Part shown: positions 43,054-55,770 of the stretch, piece after piece
Position numbering within the stretch: position 1 is the first letter of the stretch
Layout: every line of letters begins with the position of its first letter
The notes under the pieces: model-generated
What the model was told of the DNA's origin: nothing
The model's input: only the letters and a program-made list of their open reading frames with translations
Databases searched by the model: none
Assembly: GCF_000189755.2 (NCBI RefSeq)
Contig: NZ_KI912183.1
Location: forward strand, 870,257-934,256
Source of the DNA: Desulfotomaculum nigrificans DSM 574
GTDB lineage: Bacteria; Bacillota; Desulfotomaculia; Desulfotomaculales; Desulfotomaculaceae
Length of the DNA: 64,000 bases
Direction of reading: 5' to 3'
Translations under genes and position numbers: made by a program

Positions 43054-43063
43054 AAACCAAGCA

Positions 43064-43187
43064 ACCACCTTCTCCCATCCAGACTTTAACTGTCGGCCCT
43101 GGCTTTTCACCAGATCTGCCCCTGCGGGCTCGCGGGCTCGGCCTACGCCATACCGCCGGTAAGGAATTTCACCTAACCCTGAAGGTT
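43064..43187 (-). promoter_or_regulatory. FMN riboswitch (RFN element)
   Basis: On the minus strand the conserved blocks occur in order: GGGTTAGGTGAAATTCC, ACCGGCGGTA, AGCCCGCGAGCCC, GGCAGATCTGGTG, GCCGACAGT and GATGGGAGAAGG. These match the RFN element that senses flavin mononucleotide. It sits upstream of ribD and is followed by a terminator, so transcription attenuation is expected. Confidence 0.97.
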
Positions 43188-43210
43188 AACTAATTTATTT
43201 AATTAAGATC

Positions 43211-43406: not shown

Positions 43407-43766
43407 ATGTTGTCCAACGAAACTTGCCAAGAATACTGTTTCCATGAAGACATCGTAAACCGGTTAAGGCCTGTGGCCGAAGAAGCTGCTAAACTGGCTC
43501 CCATATTTAAAGCTTTATCCGATGAAACCAGGGTCAAAATAATCTATGCCCTGGCCCAGGCAGAGTTATGTGTTTGCGATATTGCAGAGTTGACTGGTTG
43601 CACACTGCCGGCTGTTTCTCACCACCTGAGAATTCTTCGCAACATTGGCCTGGCTAAAAGTCGTAAAGAAGGTAAGTTTATTTACTATAACATTGACGAC
43701 CATCATGTTTCGCAAATTATTAATGCGGCCTTTGCACACCTGAGGGAGGGAAGGCATCATGAGTAG
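43407..43766 (+). CDS. ArsR/SmtB-family metal-responsive repressor (CadC/CmtR-like)
   Basis: The 119-residue product has a winged helix-turn-helix (about residues 30-95) with FKALSDETRVKIIYAL, the metal-type ELCVCDIAEL motif and LPAVSHHLRILRNIGLAKSRKEG. N-terminal Cys residues (ETCQEYC) plus CVC suggest a soft-metal thiolate site for Cd, Pb or Zn. The ATG at 43407 follows GAGGTG. It overlaps the P-type ATPase by 8 bases, so it is its regulator. Confidence 0.93.
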   Translation: MLSNETCQEYCFHEDIVNRLRPVAEEAAKLAPIFKALSDETRVKIIYALAQAELCVCDIAELTGCTLPAVSHHLRILRNIGLAKSRKEGKFIYYNIDDHHVSQIINAAFAHLREGRHHE

Positions 43767-45945
43767 CGCCGCTTTTCTGGAATTCCGCCTGGAAGGTTTA
43801 TCCTGCGCTGATTGCGCCGCCAAATTGGAGCGTAACATTGCTGCTTTACCCGGCGTAGAACAGGCCAAATTGAATTTTGCTGCAGCCAAACTTACGGTTC
43901 GCGGTGACGTACAAGCAAGCCTGATTATTGATGAGGCCAGGCGGGACGGTGTCCGGGCTATTCCGGCCCACCAAGACCGGGAGGCGGACCAGATAGCATT
44001 CTGGAAAAAACACCATAGGGCCATTTTCAGTGGTCTTGCCGGTATCCTGGTGGCTACCGGGTGGTTGGTTCATTATGCCTTGGGTATGGAAAGTTGGGCC
44101 AAGCTGTTATACACAGCCACTATAGCCGTGGGAGGCTATGCTGTAGGCAAAAAAGCTTTAGTATCCTTAGGCCGCCACCGGTTGGATATGAACGTTTTAA
44201 TGAGTATCGCGGTGATCGGAGCCGTCTTAATTGGAGAATGGAGCGAGGGTGCCACGGTAGCCTTCTTATTCTCGGTCAGTGAAGCCTTAGAATCCTACAC
44301 CATGGATAAAGCCCGCAACTCCATTCGTAACTTAATGAATCTGGCCCCGGATACGGCGATAGTCATCAGGAACGGCCAGGAAATCCAATTGCCGGTCAAA
44401 GACGTGATCATCGGGGATATGCTGGTGGTACGCCCCGGCGAGAAAATTGCTATGGACGGCATTATTACTAATGGACATTCATCCATTAACCAGGCCACCA
44501 TTACCGGGGAATCAGTACCGGTGGATCGTGGCCCGGGAGGCGAAGTCTATGCCGGTACCATCAACGGCGAAGGCAGTTTAATGGTCAGGGTGACTAAACT
44601 AGTGCAGGATAACACCATCTCTCGGATCATCCACTTGGTGGAAGAAGCCCAAGGCCAGCGGGCTCCGTCCCAGGCCTTTGTTGACCGCTTTGCCGCCGTC
44701 TATACGCCGGTGGTGATAACTTTGGCGGCATTAATTGTGGTAATTCCTCCCCTGCTTTTAAACCAGCCCTGGGCACCATGGATTTACCGGGGTTTAGCCC
44801 TGCTGGTGGTGGCCTGTCCCTGTGCGCTGGTTATCTCAACGCCGGTGGCCATCGTTTCGGCCATTGGCAATGCCGCCAGGCACGGTGTGTTAATCAAAGG
44901 GGGCATTCATCTAGAAGAAGTAAGCCGCCTTAGGGCCTTAGCCTTTGATAAAACCGGCACCTTGACCAAGGGTTTACCGGAGGTCACTCAGGTGATACCT
45001 GCTGACCATATTAGCGAAAGCGAATTACTTACTATAGCCGGGGCGGTGGAACATCATTCAGAGCACCCCCTGGCTCGGGCTATCGTGGCTAAAACCAGGG
45101 ATATAAATATTTACCCAACCCCGGCGGAAAACTTCCAGGCCTTAACTGGGCTAGGCGCCCGGGCCACGGTAAATGGACAAAATATTCTGGTGGGTAGCCC
45201 GCGTTTACTCGAACAAAACGGTATTAATATTGCCGGGTGGCAGGAAGCACTGGCCTCCCTTTTCTCCCTGGGTAACACAGTTGTTATGGTGGCCAGAGAA
45301 AAAGAAGTGTTGGGTTGTATTGGGTTGGCTGATCGGGTTCGCCCCATGGCCGCAGATTCTGTGGCTAAACTTAGTAAATTAGGTATATCTCCGCTGATTA
45401 TGTTGACCGGTGATAACCGGCAGACCGCTGAAGTGATTGCAGCCCAGGCCGGAATTGATGATTTCCGGGCTAACTTGCTACCTCAGGATAAAGTTGCAGA
45501 AATTAAGAAGATGCGCCAAGAACTTGGTTTTATCGGTATGGTGGGTGATGGTATTAACGATGCCCCGGCCCTGGCAGCAGCCAACGTCGGTATCGCCATG
45601 GGCGGGGCCGGTAGTGATGCTGCCCTGGAAACTGCTGACCTGGTGTTAATGGGAGATGATTTAAGTAAACTTCCCTTTACCGTTCGTATGGCTCGGTCTG
45701 CCATGCAAGTAATTAAACAGAATATTACCTTTGCCATAGGGATTAAGCTGCTGGCTGTTTTAGCAGTATTTCCCGGTTGGTTGACTCTATGGCTGGCTAT
45801 ACTGGCTGATATGGGGGCAACCATTATGGTAACCCTCAACAGCATCAGATTAGTGGGCATTAAACCGGACGGCGGGTCAGATTTTACCATTGATCCTGTC
45901 CCTGGTTGTGGTGGTAATAAGCCTGATCCGGCCACAGGTGGCTGA
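43759..45945 (+). CDS. cadA: Heavy-metal-exporting P1B-type ATPase (CadA-like)
   Basis: This pump uses ATP to expel divalent soft metals such as Cd, Zn or Pb. The 728-residue product has an N-terminal HMA domain with GLSCADCAAKLE and eight predicted membrane helices. The metal-binding CPC is at C353-P-C355 in ACPCALVIS. The phosphorylated D397 is in DKTGTLTKG, and GDGINDAPALAAANVGIAMG is also present. The CPC motif with a CadC-like partner favours Cd/Zn over Cu. A short Gly/Pro tail follows the last helix. Confidence 0.94.
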   Translation: MSSAAFLEFRLEGLSCADCAAKLERNIAALPGVEQAKLNFAAAKLTVRGDVQASLIIDEARRDGVRAIPAHQDREADQIAFWKKHHRAIFSGLAGILVATGWLVHYALGMESWAKLLYTATIAVGGYAVGKKALVSLGRHRLDMNVLMSIAVIGAVLIGEWSEGATVAFLFSVSEALESYTMDKARNSIRNLMNLAPDTAIVIRNGQEIQLPVKDVIIGDMLVVRPGEKIAMDGIITNGHSSINQATITGESVPVDRGPGGEVYAGTINGEGSLMVRVTKLVQDNTISRIIHLVEEAQGQRAPSQAFVDRFAAVYTPVVITLAALIVVIPPLLLNQPWAPWIYRGLALLVVACPCALVISTPVAIVSAIGNAARHGVLIKGGIHLEEVSRLRALAFDKTGTLTKGLPEVTQVIPADHISESELLTIAGAVEHHSEHPLARAIVAKTRDINIYPTPAENFQALTGLGARATVNGQNILVGSPRLLEQNGINIAGWQEALASLFSLGNTVVMVAREKEVLGCIGLADRVRPMAADSVAKLSKLGISPLIMLTGDNRQTAEVIAAQAGIDDFRANLLPQDKVAEIKKMRQELGFIGMVGDGINDAPALAAANVGIAMGGAGSDAALETADLVLMGDDLSKLPFTVRMARSAMQVIKQNITFAIGIKLLAVLAVFPGWLTLWLAILADMGATIMVTLNSIRLVGIKPDGGSDFTIDPVPGCGGNKPDPATGG

Positions 45946-46123: not shown

Positions 46124-46450
46124 TTGAGAAACGCTTCTCTCAAACTTTTTTTATCTACCTTAGGTATCGTGTTCCTATCTGAGATGGGGGATAAGACTCA
46201 GATAACCACGATGCTGTTGGCCGGGGCAAAACCTCTTTATGTGATCTACGTTGCCTTGGGGTCAGCCATGGCCCTAATTTGCACTTCGTTTATTGAGGTG
46301 CTCATTGGCTCCCATATCGTAGCCAGATACTTGAAGCCAGCAACCATCAAGGTAGCCTCGGGCTTTGCCTTTTTAATTTTAGGCCTGCTGCTAATTTTGG
46401 GCGTCATAGGAGCCGATGAAATAAATACACTGAAAGGATCAATCTTATGA
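46124..46450 (+). CDS. TMEM165/GDT1 family half-transporter, first copy
   Basis: This 108-residue membrane protein has three hydrophobic helices and the family motif SEMGDKTQ near residue 20. GDT1 proteins export manganese or exchange cations. The usual protein has two such halves; here each half is a separate gene. The TTG start at 46124 follows GGGGAGG by 7 bases. It overlaps the next gene by 4 bases, so the two halves probably form a heterodimer. Confidence 0.88.
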   Translation: MRNASLKLFLSTLGIVFLSEMGDKTQITTMLLAGAKPLYVIYVALGSAMALICTSFIEVLIGSHIVARYLKPATIKVASGFAFLILGLLLILGVIGADEINTLKGSIL

Positions 46451-46803
46451 GCATGAAATTCTTTGCTTGGCTAACAACTTATGTGCTGATTATATTGTGT
46501 GAGCTAGGTGATAAAACCCAGGTTGCTGTGTTGATGCTCTCAAGCAATCACCCTGGTAAAAAGTGGCTGATTCTGGGGGCCAGCGCTTTGGCCCTTAGTT
46601 GTTGTGTACTAATTGAAGTTACCGTGGGTGCCACCTTGGCCAGATATATCGGCCCCCAAATCATTAATAAAGCTACTGGCTGGGTATTTCTATTTGTTGG
46701 CCTTTACACTTTGGGTTCCCATTTTAATATCCGGCAAAAAATTTTTCCTCGGCAGCAAAAAGTTAATAACCATGATATTACCCCTAACTTTATGGACCGT
46801 TAA
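46447..46803 (+). CDS. TMEM165/GDT1 family half-transporter, second copy
   Basis: The 118-residue product has three hydrophobic helices and the second family motif CELGDKTQ near residue 19. With the first copy it would supply both E-x-G-D-K-T motifs needed for a manganese-transporting pore. A short basic tail follows. Its 3' end faces a manganese riboswitch on the opposite strand. A weak hairpin GGACC-GTTAA-GGTCC with TCTTTTTATTT at 46794-46820 may terminate it. Confidence 0.88.
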   Translation: MSMKFFAWLTTYVLIILCELGDKTQVAVLMLSSNHPGKKWLILGASALALSCCVLIEVTVGATLARYIGPQIINKATGWVFLFVGLYTLGSHFNIRQKIFPRQQKVNNHDITPNFMDR

Positions 46804-46837
46804 GGTCCTCTTTTTATTTAATCAGGATATAATAAAA

Positions 46838-46980
46838 GACCTTTACTTCAATAATAGATTTATTGAAGTAAAGGTCTCGCTGCCAAGGACTTACAGTCAT
46901 CTTGTCAATAAGACCGGGCTTTCGGCCAGTGTGTCGATCTTATTGGCTTACTCTCGTAAGCTAGCTACTCCCCTTTAACT
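46838..46980 (-). promoter_or_regulatory. yybP-ykoY manganese riboswitch with terminator, oriented against the GDT1 genes
   Basis: Read on the minus strand, the element starts TTAAAGGGGAGTAGC, has GATCGACACACTGG and ends CCTTGGCAGCGAGACCTTTA, the conserved blocks of the yybP-ykoY family, which senses Mn2+. The 3' aptamer strand continues into a perfect 17-bp hairpin (46876-46838) followed by TTTTATTATAT, a terminator that overlaps the aptamer's closing stem. This is the normal ON-switch layout. But no minus-strand gene follows: the transcript would run antisense into the GDT1 genes. The structure is judged by eye. Confidence 0.85.
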
Positions 46981-47042: not shown

Positions 47043-47082
47043 TAATAAAAAAAGTCACAAGCCTATAAAGGTTTGTGACTTT
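47043..47082 (-). terminator. Terminator after ackA
   Basis: AAGTCACAAACC-TTTATA-GGCTTGTGACTT, a 12-bp stem with one G-U pair, followed on the minus strand by TTTTTATT. Confidence 0.9.
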
Positions 47083-47090
47083 GACTCTTA

Positions 47091-48287
47091 CTACCTAGTG
47101 GCCAATACTTTGGTTTCTCTGGCAATCATTAACTCCTCATTGGTGGGAACCACCATGGCGGTAATAGGTGAACCGGGCTTACTAATAATAACTTCCTTAC
47201 CCCGAGAGTTATTCTTTTCTTCATCAATCTCCAGTCCGGTATAAGCCAGACCCTTTAATACTCTGGCTCTCATGTCCTTGGAGTTTTCACCGATACCTCC
47301 GGTGAACACCACCACATCCAGACCGCCCAGAGCAGCAGTAAAGGCACCAATCCATTTATTGATACTATAGGCAAACATGCTTAAGGCTAGTTCTGCCCGT
47401 TCATTCCCTTGGTTAGCGGCATCCTCTAAATCCCTGAAGTCACTGCTGATACCGGAAATACCTAACACACCGCTTTGTTTATTTAATAGGTTGTTAGTTT
47501 CATCAATGCTTAAGTTCTCTTTTTCCATTAAGAAAGTAACAATGGCTGGGTCAATGTCACCGGTACGGGTACCCATAGGTAAACCTGCTAAAGGAGTGAA
47601 GCCCATGGTGGTATCAACGGAAACTCCATTCCCTACAGCCGTGATACTGGAACCATTACCCAGGTGGCAAACAATAATTTTTAATTCTTCTACCGACTTA
47701 CCCAGTATTTCTGCCGCCCGACCAGATACATATTTATGTGAAGTACCGTGAAATCCATACTTACGGATCTTATACTTTTCATAATATTGGTAAGGTATAC
47801 CATACATGAAGGCATGTTTAGGTATGGACTGGTGGAAGGCCGTATCAAAGACCGCCACATGTGGAATGCCGGGTAATATTTCACGGCAGGTTTTAATGCC
47901 TACTACGTTTGGTGGATTATGTAGAGGCGCCAGATCTGATAACTCTTCTAACACTTTGATTAATTCATCATTAATCAAAACAGATTTATTAAATTCTTCA
48001 CCGCCATGCACCACCCGGTGCCCCACAGCCTTAATCATAGAGATATCGCTGATTGCACCATAGGTTTGGTCGGTAATACATTTTAAAATGGTTTCCAGAG
48101 CCACCTTATGGTTGGGTAGATCCTGTTCTAGCACCAGTTCCTTACCCGCCTGGGACTCCTGCTTGATTCTGGAACCGGCAATCCCAATCCTTTCCGCCAG
48201 TCCGGAAAGCAATACCGTCTCTTGCTCCATGTCCATCAATTTATATTTAATTGAGGAACTGCCGCAGTTAACTACCAGGATAAGCAA
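47091..48287 (-). CDS. ackA: Acetate kinase
   Basis: AckA makes ATP from acetyl phosphate and ADP (or the reverse). The 398-residue product opens with LILVVNCGSSSIKYKLMD, and has HRVVHGGEEF, FDTAFHQSIP, HLGNGSSITAV and VFTGGIGENS. I chose TTG at 48287 with AGGAGG 8 bases upstream, giving the normal family length; an ATG 12 codons earlier has no site. It follows pduL, which supplies the acyl-phosphate. Confidence 0.96.
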   Translation of the reverse strand: MLILVVNCGSSSIKYKLMDMEQETVLLSGLAERIGIAGSRIKQESQAGKELVLEQDLPNHKVALETILKCITDQTYGAISDISMIKAVGHRVVHGGEEFNKSVLINDELIKVLEELSDLAPLHNPPNVVGIKTCREILPGIPHVAVFDTAFHQSIPKHAFMYGIPYQYYEKYKIRKYGFHGTSHKYVSGRAAEILGKSVEELKIIVCHLGNGSSITAVGNGVSVDTTMGFTPLAGLPMGTRTGDIDPAIVTFLMEKENLSIDETNNLLNKQSGVLGISGISSDFRDLEDAANQGNERAELALSMFAYSINKWIGAFTAALGGLDVVVFTGGIGENSKDMRARVLKGLAYTGLEIDEEKNNSRGKEVIISKPGSPITAMVVPTNEELMIARETKVLATR

Positions 48288-48336
48288 AGACTTTTCCTCC
48301 TTTAAATTAAAAGCCAATGTCATATCTAAAGGCTAT

Positions 48337-51228: not shown

Positions 51229-51591
51229 TCACAGCATTGCGTAAGATTTCATACTCCCAAATGGGATTCTTATCTTGGGCCGCAATAACGGGAACGTTTT
51301 TTTAATTTCATTGTATTTATCCCAAGTTATGTAACCCTTCCAGCTTCGGCTGCACAACATTTTCCGCCAGTATTCTTCAACTCTGCAGTATACCCTGAGC
51401 AGTGATTTGCGGTTTCCACCCATTCCATAGTAGTTGTAGTGTCCTCTGAGCATTTCGTTGATTTTATCCGCCTGGTCTTTTATTGCCCAGTGCCGGATTT
51501 CCTTCATTTTATCCGTTATTTTCCGGATACTACTTTTTAATCTGCTCTTTTCTGTCTTTCTACCTACCATGAAATTGCCTTTTCTTGAACC
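51229..51591 (-). pseudogene. ltrA: Group II intron reverse transcriptase/maturase, C-terminal remnant
   Basis: The frame reads SRKGNFMVGRKTEKSRLKSS and, later, LRGHYNYYGMGGNRKSL and YWRKMLCSRSWKGYITWDKY, the maturase (X) domain of group II intron proteins. The reverse-transcriptase domain with its YADD motif is gone, and two stops lie just upstream. No HNH endonuclease follows, which fits the class C (group IIC) type. Confidence 0.85.
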
Positions 51592-51837: not shown

Positions 51838-52126
51838 CAACCAAACAGGATGATATCGGGCTTCCCCGGTTAAGTCTGCTTGCCTGAACTTGAATCCATC
51901 CGTCCTAACCTATCGGGTTGTCCGGCTATTGGGCTTTCCCATAATATGCAAGGTTACCCACCTGATCGGCCAACCCAGGTTCGCTTTCGCTATGTTCTAA
52001 GTTCTTCCTTCAGCTTCTTCAGACCCCACCGTTGCCAGTGACGCCCTTGCCTACAGGTTTGTCTTCCCGCTGGTTGGGCGACAGGGTTTCTTTCAACCCA
52101 TCGCTCGGCAGACATGCCGGGCGCAC
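51838..52126 (-). mobile_element. Group II intron 5' segment (domain I part)
   Basis: The minus strand begins GTGCGCCCGGCATG, the usual group II 5' end, and continues with GGGCGTCACTGGCAACGG and other intron-like blocks. The 5' boundary lies directly behind the rplT terminator (T-run then TAT). Group IIC introns are known to insert after terminator stems, so the location fits. The intron is no longer complete. Confidence 0.65.
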
Positions 52127-53339: not shown

Positions 53340-53487
53340 TTAATTGAAATAAATAAAAGCGGGCGAAACCACCCGCTTTTTAGACGCACTGTTACTAACA
53401 TGTCGTACATCGTAACCTTACTAACCTGAGGCGTAAGGTGAGAAGCGGATGCTTCTACTTATTAAATACTATTAATTTGTCAACACT
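53340..53487 (-). promoter_or_regulatory. infC leader, probable ribosomal protein L20 leader
   Basis: The roughly 170-base leader contains AGAAGC-ATCC-GCTTCT followed by CACCTTACGCC, and ends in a terminator AAAAGCGGG-TGGTTTCG-CCCGCTTTT with ATTTATTT (53348-53380). This matches the arrangement of the L20-binding attenuator upstream of infC in low-GC Gram-positives. Identity is by motif and position. Confidence 0.75.
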
Positions 53488-55517: not shown

Positions 55518-55745
55518 AAATAAAACCCGCCCCTGAAATCTCAGGGACGGGGATAATCCGCGGTTCCACCCTGGTTGGAGCATCATTGCTCCCACCTCTT
55601 AGGCGCTAACGGTGCCCACCGGTTTACTTACTAGTTTCAGTAAACAGCTCCAGGGTGGTTTTCAGGCAGCGGCATCGGGAAAGGCTTGCAGCCGGTGGCC
55701 TTTCCTCTCTGAACGATCGGACTGACTTACTCGTCCCCTTCATAG
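55518..55745 (-). promoter_or_regulatory. Threonine T-box riboswitch
   Basis: On the minus strand the leader begins with GGACGAGTAAGTC, has AGAGAGG (AG bulge), and a specifier segment CTGAAAACCACCCTGGAG, where ACC is a Thr codon. The T-box AGGGTGGAACCGCGG follows, then a terminator CCCCGTCCCTGA / TCAGGGGCGGG with TTTTATTTT (55552-55525). Uncharged tRNA(Thr) would favour the antiterminator and switch thrS on. Confidence 0.97.
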
Positions 55746-55770
55746 CAAGATATATTAATAAACTGCAATA

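Follow-up and report, generated by a model that had tools for sequence, protein, structure and literature searches.

A minus-strand manganese riboswitch convergent with a split GDT1 gene pair in Desulfotomaculum nigrificans, and a candidate antisense role for its reversed relatives

The yybP-ykoY riboswitch is the textbook ON switch for Mn2+ exporters, and within this class it is the P1-closed form of the aptamer that Mn2+ stabilises. In one review, yybP-ykoY is reported to control a UPF0016 (GDT1) member in 328 of the 333 screened strains having one, and the family has been described as including split GDT1 pairs (PMC7380456). As far as the accessible text of a 2023 PLoS One in silico survey extends, antisense-acting SAM (ubiG) and B12 (pocR) riboswitches are established, and five antisense-acting yybP-ykoY copies are counted among 1,907, without enrichment (PMC9943018). 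The same text describes one antisense yybP-ykoY riboswitch in Carboxydocella thermautotrophica 019, where it adjoins the 3' end of the Mn2+ transporter gene CFE_2050 (PMC9943018). The first-pass annotation of the DNA analysed here had known of no described case of a manganese riboswitch pointing backwards at a transporter gene, a statement that the survey's entry on C. thermautotrophica overturns. Comparative evidence from sequence supports the antisense reading that this annotation had offered, and does not support the claim to a first case; what would be new with respect to the accessible survey text is the GDT1 pair as target, the conserved module and a subtype found only in antisense.

The window is the whole stretch of 64,000 nt from Desulfotomaculum nigrificans DSM 574 to which all coordinates refer, and the locus comprises the following features:

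43759-45945, plus strand: heavy-metal P-type ATPase gene (Pfam), a syntenic anchor that is directly convergent with ackA in relatives without the module (empty sites)
46124-46450, plus strand: GDT1a, a half-size GDT1/UPF0016 protein of 108 aa (Pfam PF01169, E 8.6e-19)
46447-46803, plus strand: GDT1b, a half-size GDT1/UPF0016 protein of 118 aa (PF01169, E 9.2e-18), whose 3' end faces the riboswitch
46794-46820, plus strand: weak terminator-like hairpin of the GDT1 operon, 5 bp with a T-rich tail
46867-46979, minus strand: yybP-ykoY (Mn2+) aptamer of the antisense-associated subtype, with UCGACACACUGG...CCCGG in P3/L3 (RF00080, invariant columns, covarying pairs, subtype motif)
47047-47079, minus strand: terminator of ackA, GTCACAAACC-tttata-GGCTTGTGAC-TTTTTTT, which divides ackA transcription from the riboswitch
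47091-48323, minus strand: ackA (acetate kinase), upstream neighbour of the riboswitch and syntenic anchor (Pfam, orthologues)

The plus-strand GDT1 pair that had been described from the letters alone, with its 3' ends facing a minus-strand riboswitch, is borne out by PF01169 matches at an E of about 1e-18 for both ORFs. The two genes, the start of GDT1b overlapping the stop of GDT1a, encode three-span proteins that each carry the E-x-G-D-K/R-S/T motif (EMGDKT and ELGDKT), and between the GDT1b stop and the end of the riboswitch terminator lie 33 bases. No riboswitch was detected ahead of GDT1a with RF00080 at E values up to 5. The riboswitch converges on the 3' end of a ligand-related gene and has no sense gene downstream: from the riboswitch to ribD, the only minus-strand ORFs of at least 60 aa run opposite the P-type ATPase and arsR genes, and among the smaller ones past the terminator none is well supported and none is common to the window and G108, a second genome with the same module. 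Since ackA ends at its own terminator (47079-47047), the riboswitch requires its own transcription start; we infer a promoter ahead of it, where a consensus scan revealed no good sigma-70 promoter. Elsewhere in the window, the FMN riboswitch before ribD (43063-43190, minus strand), an L20 leader (53345-53466, minus strand) and a T-box (55540-55752, minus strand) are ordinary cis elements, and a group II intron RNA match (51875-52041, minus strand) is followed by a 113-aa ORF (51229-51570, minus strand) resembling a C-terminal maturase piece.

The minus-strand yybP-ykoY element of the first-pass annotation was recovered by the RF00080 search that the annotation had proposed: in a 1.3-kb search the model scores 29.5 bits (E 6.3e-6) over 46985-46820 of the minus strand, and the same match has an E of 3.5e-6 in a search of the whole 3.05-Mb genome. 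The score lies below the gathering cut-off of 45 bits, and the default Rfam scan does not return the window aptamer. This cut-off is uninformative here, because it is attained by only three of the 28 copies in the order (RF00080 matches in 60 relatives), the 25 that stay below it including sense-oriented leaders. In an alignment of 31 sequences of the clade, the window copy keeps all 20 invariant columns, and the GGGGAGUAGC loop, the CA in L3, the GG and the AGCGAGACC closing strand that make up the core are all present. Two-sided (compensatory) changes occur at 15 of the 23 pairs among these 31 aptamers; the covarying P3 is intact in the window copy, where P1, P3 and lower P3 have been preserved through compensatory A-U/G-C changes. 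In addition, the fold energy of the 166-nt RNA is 6.7 SD better than that of dinucleotide shuffles. The idea that the invariant metal-binding A of L3 had become G in the window copy was rejected: the invariant CA is retained in the alignment, and the G that did change has a complementary C as its partner. Conservation confirms a yybP-ykoY (Mn2+) aptamer with its terminator on the minus strand, convergent with the GDT1 pair. The two other riboswitches of this class in the genome have the usual orientation, ahead of HtpX and TerC genes.

The expression platform is formed by three elements:

46972-46976, minus strand: 5' strand of P1 (AAAGG), which pairs with 46870-46874 in the aptamer fold
46870-46874, minus strand: 3' strand of P1 (CCUUU), common to the 5' arm of the terminator, in which the minimum-energy fold places it
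46836-46878, minus strand: intrinsic terminator, a 19-bp stem followed by a U-rich tract at 46835-46826 (TTTTATTAT)

It had previously been stated that the aptamer is overlapped by a 17-bp terminator with a T-run; the overlap and the T-run stand, while the stem proves to be 19 bp long. Its 5' arm holds the 3' strand of P1, as in a P1-controlled platform with a terminator, and the unliganded minimum-energy fold of the window copy is the terminator. When P1 is forced during folding, the base of the terminator dissolves, so that its lower half is lost and the U-tract is left unpaired. P1 and the terminator contend for one strand both in the window copy and in another four reversed copies, and the terminator fold is better by 11-18 kcal/mol without ligand; the overlap of P1 and terminator is also present in sense-oriented leaders of the order. 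Given that Mn2+ favours the P1-closed aptamer and that P1 and the terminator are mutually exclusive, this would therefore be an ON platform, at which Mn2+ should permit read-through.

The same module of GDT1a, GDT1b and a reversed riboswitch is found in another family of the order (G108, locus L055), where the riboswitch ends about 30 bases from GDT1b and the gene beyond it is alanine racemase-like and not ackA. The window and G108 are sisters in a concatenated GDT1a and GDT1b tree (support 0.80), and their aptamers are reciprocal best matches among about 170. The module appears to have been inherited or transferred as a unit, and the layout has outlasted a divergence of GDT1b to 56% identity over the matched part, which is evidence against a dead relic. 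Loci with a GDT1 pair number 18, from nine of the 113 genomes of the order (that of the window included) and nine more in the phylum sample; a sense riboswitch stands at none of them and a reversed one at two (window and G108), so that the arrangement is conserved through L055 at only 2/18 loci. The proposal of the first-pass annotation that the genes had been inverted relative to their riboswitch finds no support in these 18 loci. A scan of a large genome collection with the GDT1b alignment retrieved mainly remote GDT1 proteins, and Rfam gave no new riboswitch case at the two closest Firmicutes loci from that scan. In other genomes, genes for DtxR/MntR-type regulators adjoin split GDT1 pairs, in convergent or codirectional orientation, at L050, L051, L053, L149, L151 and L152, two of them being confirmed by Pfam.

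The geometry recurs in other parts of the phylum. A clade model (R1), built with the window copy, L055 and L155 included, has matches in 223 of 399 phylum genomes, and the downstream gene was classed for 142 of its best matches, fetched with 1.5 kb flanks. Most of these 142 precede sense genes from a few recurring families. Those among them that are reversed and opposed by a substantial gene face mntH/Nramp in two lineages (G257 and G116) and a feoB-like gene with FeoB-C and Gate domains in G379 (L240), according to Pfam, and these are the only convergent neighbours that are not transposases; in G162, a second species of the genus of G116, the mntH layout is seen again. These copies opposite mntH and feoB-like genes, together with the G108 module, argue for the other alternative of the first-pass annotation, that of antisense control. 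Transposases face the riboswitch at L216 (G227) and L260 (G471), where insertion elements part yybP-ykoY riboswitches from genes. At L240, Mn2+ control of iron transport via antisense RNA is a putative possibility.

The reversed aptamers also share a sequence subtype. TCGACA[TC]NCTGG together with CCCGG across P3 occurs in all five of them (window, G108, G257, G116 and G379), and the motif (UCGACAYNCUGG, P3/L3) occurs in none of the 139 other aptamers (Fisher P 2e-9); it was first noticed in the window and G108, and without those two the counts are 3/3 versus 0/139. Written as a DNA pattern, the subtype is GGRGTAG-N(8-60)-TCGACAYNCTGG-N-CCCGG, and the reversed riboswitch of G162 carries the UCGACA motif as well. 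The difference from the sense type (UCAACAUACUGG...CCUGG) is a single covarying pair, and therefore the subtype looks like a mark of descent and not a new ligand site. Among about 170 aptamers, the three nearest relatives of the window copy are all reversed; the nucleotide tree of all aptamers is too poorly resolved to speak for or against a single clade of the reversed copies. The reversed aptamers look related, so they would not represent five independent origins.

With regard to the local history, ackA is directly followed by the convergent P-type ATPase gene in G007 and G008, which constitute empty sites (L036, L041), and a search of nine further genomes of the family revealed no GDT1 pair; therefore, GDT1a, GDT1b and the riboswitch are an insertion at this locus in the window's genome, and a recent one to judge by these sites. 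A nucleotide search of 60 relatives gave no match to the region. In other species of the genus, ackA is followed by a conserved ORF about 20 codons long, M(F)TKHWMLRETAHCKEGC(x)(x) (L036, L038, L039, L040, L041, L042). This ORF has a strong GGAGGTGA ribosome-binding site, and its copies differ by many synonymous changes; the window lacks it and has the riboswitch in its place.

The mechanism that we propose would begin with an RNA initiated upstream of 46980. Without Mn2+, this RNA would stop at the 19-bp terminator (46836), short of the 3' end of GDT1b. Once Mn2+ is bound, P1 would keep the CCUUU strand and the terminator would be blocked; RNA polymerase would then continue antisense across GDT1b and GDT1a, and antisense transcription, by collision or duplex formation, would reduce GDT1ab expression. 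Read-through antisense to GDT1, permitted by Mn2+ through the mutual exclusion of P1 and terminator and lowering GDT1ab at high Mn2+, is the most likely outcome predicted by the folding model. Overall, we give somewhat better than even chances to a working Mn2+ riboswitch that drives antisense RNA and Mn2+-dependent repression of GDT1ab, the sign being the weakest step; the presence of a riboswitch at so few of the GDT1-pair loci (2/18) and the lack of a good sigma-70 promoter by consensus scan both stand against it.

As to the sign, most GDT1 proteins that have been characterised clear Mn2+ out of the cytosol (reviewed in PMC7380456), and turning GDT1ab down at high Mn2+ would thus look like the wrong response, except if the split pair takes Mn2+ up or transports a different ion. 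Under the proposed mechanism, Mn2+ would lower expression of the split pair, as for an importer gene, whereas the full-length GDT1 exporters behind sense riboswitches are turned up. A different role for the split pair would fit with the absence of sense riboswitches from all 18 loci, in contrast to the sense control that the review gives for 328 of 333 UPF0016-bearing strains, and with the DtxR/MntR-type genes adjoining it in several genomes. Nramp is absent from the window genome and G108, but also from members of the genus without the GDT1 pair, so its absence alone is no evidence for an import role. For mntH (Nramp) and feoB-like genes, which are importers by family, the case would be simple: Mn2+ would produce antisense RNA and uptake would drop.

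Antisense control might also have the opposite sign, with read-through or duplex formation stabilising or de-repressing GDT1ab, e.g., by protection of the mRNA 3' end, to give a Mn2+-induced exporter. That would agree with the lowering of cytosolic Mn2+ by most characterised GDT1 proteins and with the full-length GDT1 genes of the order that stand behind sense ON riboswitches (L003-L006), and the geometry alone leaves the sign unfixed; however, the same subtype in the same geometry opposes the mntH and feoB-like importers, and the described antisense riboswitches repress, which makes this alternative unlikely. A similarly low probability is assigned to a free-standing regulatory RNA, either terminated (about 145 nt) or read-through, that would act in trans or bear a small ORF next to an incidental neighbour. 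In its favour are the missing downstream sense gene, the B12 riboswitch RNA acting in trans that is known from Listeria, and the presence of small minus-strand ORFs (27 aa at 46773); yet the window and G108 do not have the same small ORFs downstream, and an incidental neighbour would not explain why all convergent non-transposase neighbours are Mn or Fe transport genes.

It is quite improbable that the riboswitch is a functionless relic, left over after loss or inversion of the gene that once lay downstream of it. Orphaning does happen, since 2/142 phylum matches face transposases (G227, G471), and the locus is a recent insertion, the other members of the genus that were searched lacking the module, with ackA and the ATPase gene directly adjacent in G007/G008. 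Against this, the terminator stem is perfect over 19 bp, P3 and the core residues are intact, the same module with sister GDT1 genes persists in a second family, and 0/18 GDT1-pair loci have a riboswitch in sense orientation. Finally, a chance match to the Rfam model, with no riboswitch at all, is suggested by nothing but the 29.5-bit score under the curated cut-off, has a negligible probability and is already refuted by conservation, considering the in-place E of about 5e-6, the invariant columns (20/20), the covarying P3, the overlap of terminator and P1, and the homologue at the same place in G108.

Beyond repression of GDT1ab by Mn2+ through antisense RNA, which remains our preferred reading, we put forward tentatively, as a proposal that falls short of an even chance, that a Mn2+ riboswitch lineage has become specialised for antisense action, with its own subtype, positioned behind mntH, feoB-like and split GDT1 genes, turning Mn2+ into a gene-off signal each time even though its aptamer-terminator unit is an ON switch. 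If true, the split GDT1 pair would be used at low Mn2+, possibly in uptake, against the usual export role of the family. A subtype that occurs only reversed, behind Mn/Fe transporter genes, would show an OFF circuit evolving from a turned-round ON switch, and its motif would provide a sequence signature for finding antisense circuits. The direct prediction is that expression of the split GDT1 transporter should fall, not rise, with Mn2+.

Several known systems resemble this locus in part. At CFE_2050 of C. thermautotrophica, as given in the accessible survey text, a Mn2+ riboswitch is convergent with the 3' end of a Mn2+ transport gene, like in the window, but the opposed gene is Nramp/mntH instead of a split GDT1 pair; analogy with the type strain (G162), in which mntH is the opposed gene, suggests that CFE_2050 of strain 019 is likewise mntH. 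The SAM riboswitch of ubiG-mccBA in Clostridium acetobutylicum, as presented in that text (PMC9943018), also bears a terminator, lies downstream of and convergent with an operon and yields antisense read-through; it is an OFF switch producing antisense RNA at low ligand, whereas the window copy would be an ON platform producing it at high Mn2+. Similarly, the pocR B12 riboswitch of Listeria is located at the 3' end of a ligand-related gene and yields antisense RNA, according to the same accessible text (PMC9943018), but it is an OFF switch for another ligand and its target is a regulator, while that of the window would be a transporter. The canonical yybP-ykoY leaders (GDT1, TerC, P-type ATPase, HtpX, CaCA exchanger) share with the window copy the aptamer core and the P1/terminator platform, but they stand ahead of their genes in sense orientation and carry UCGACAYNCUGG in 0/139 cases.
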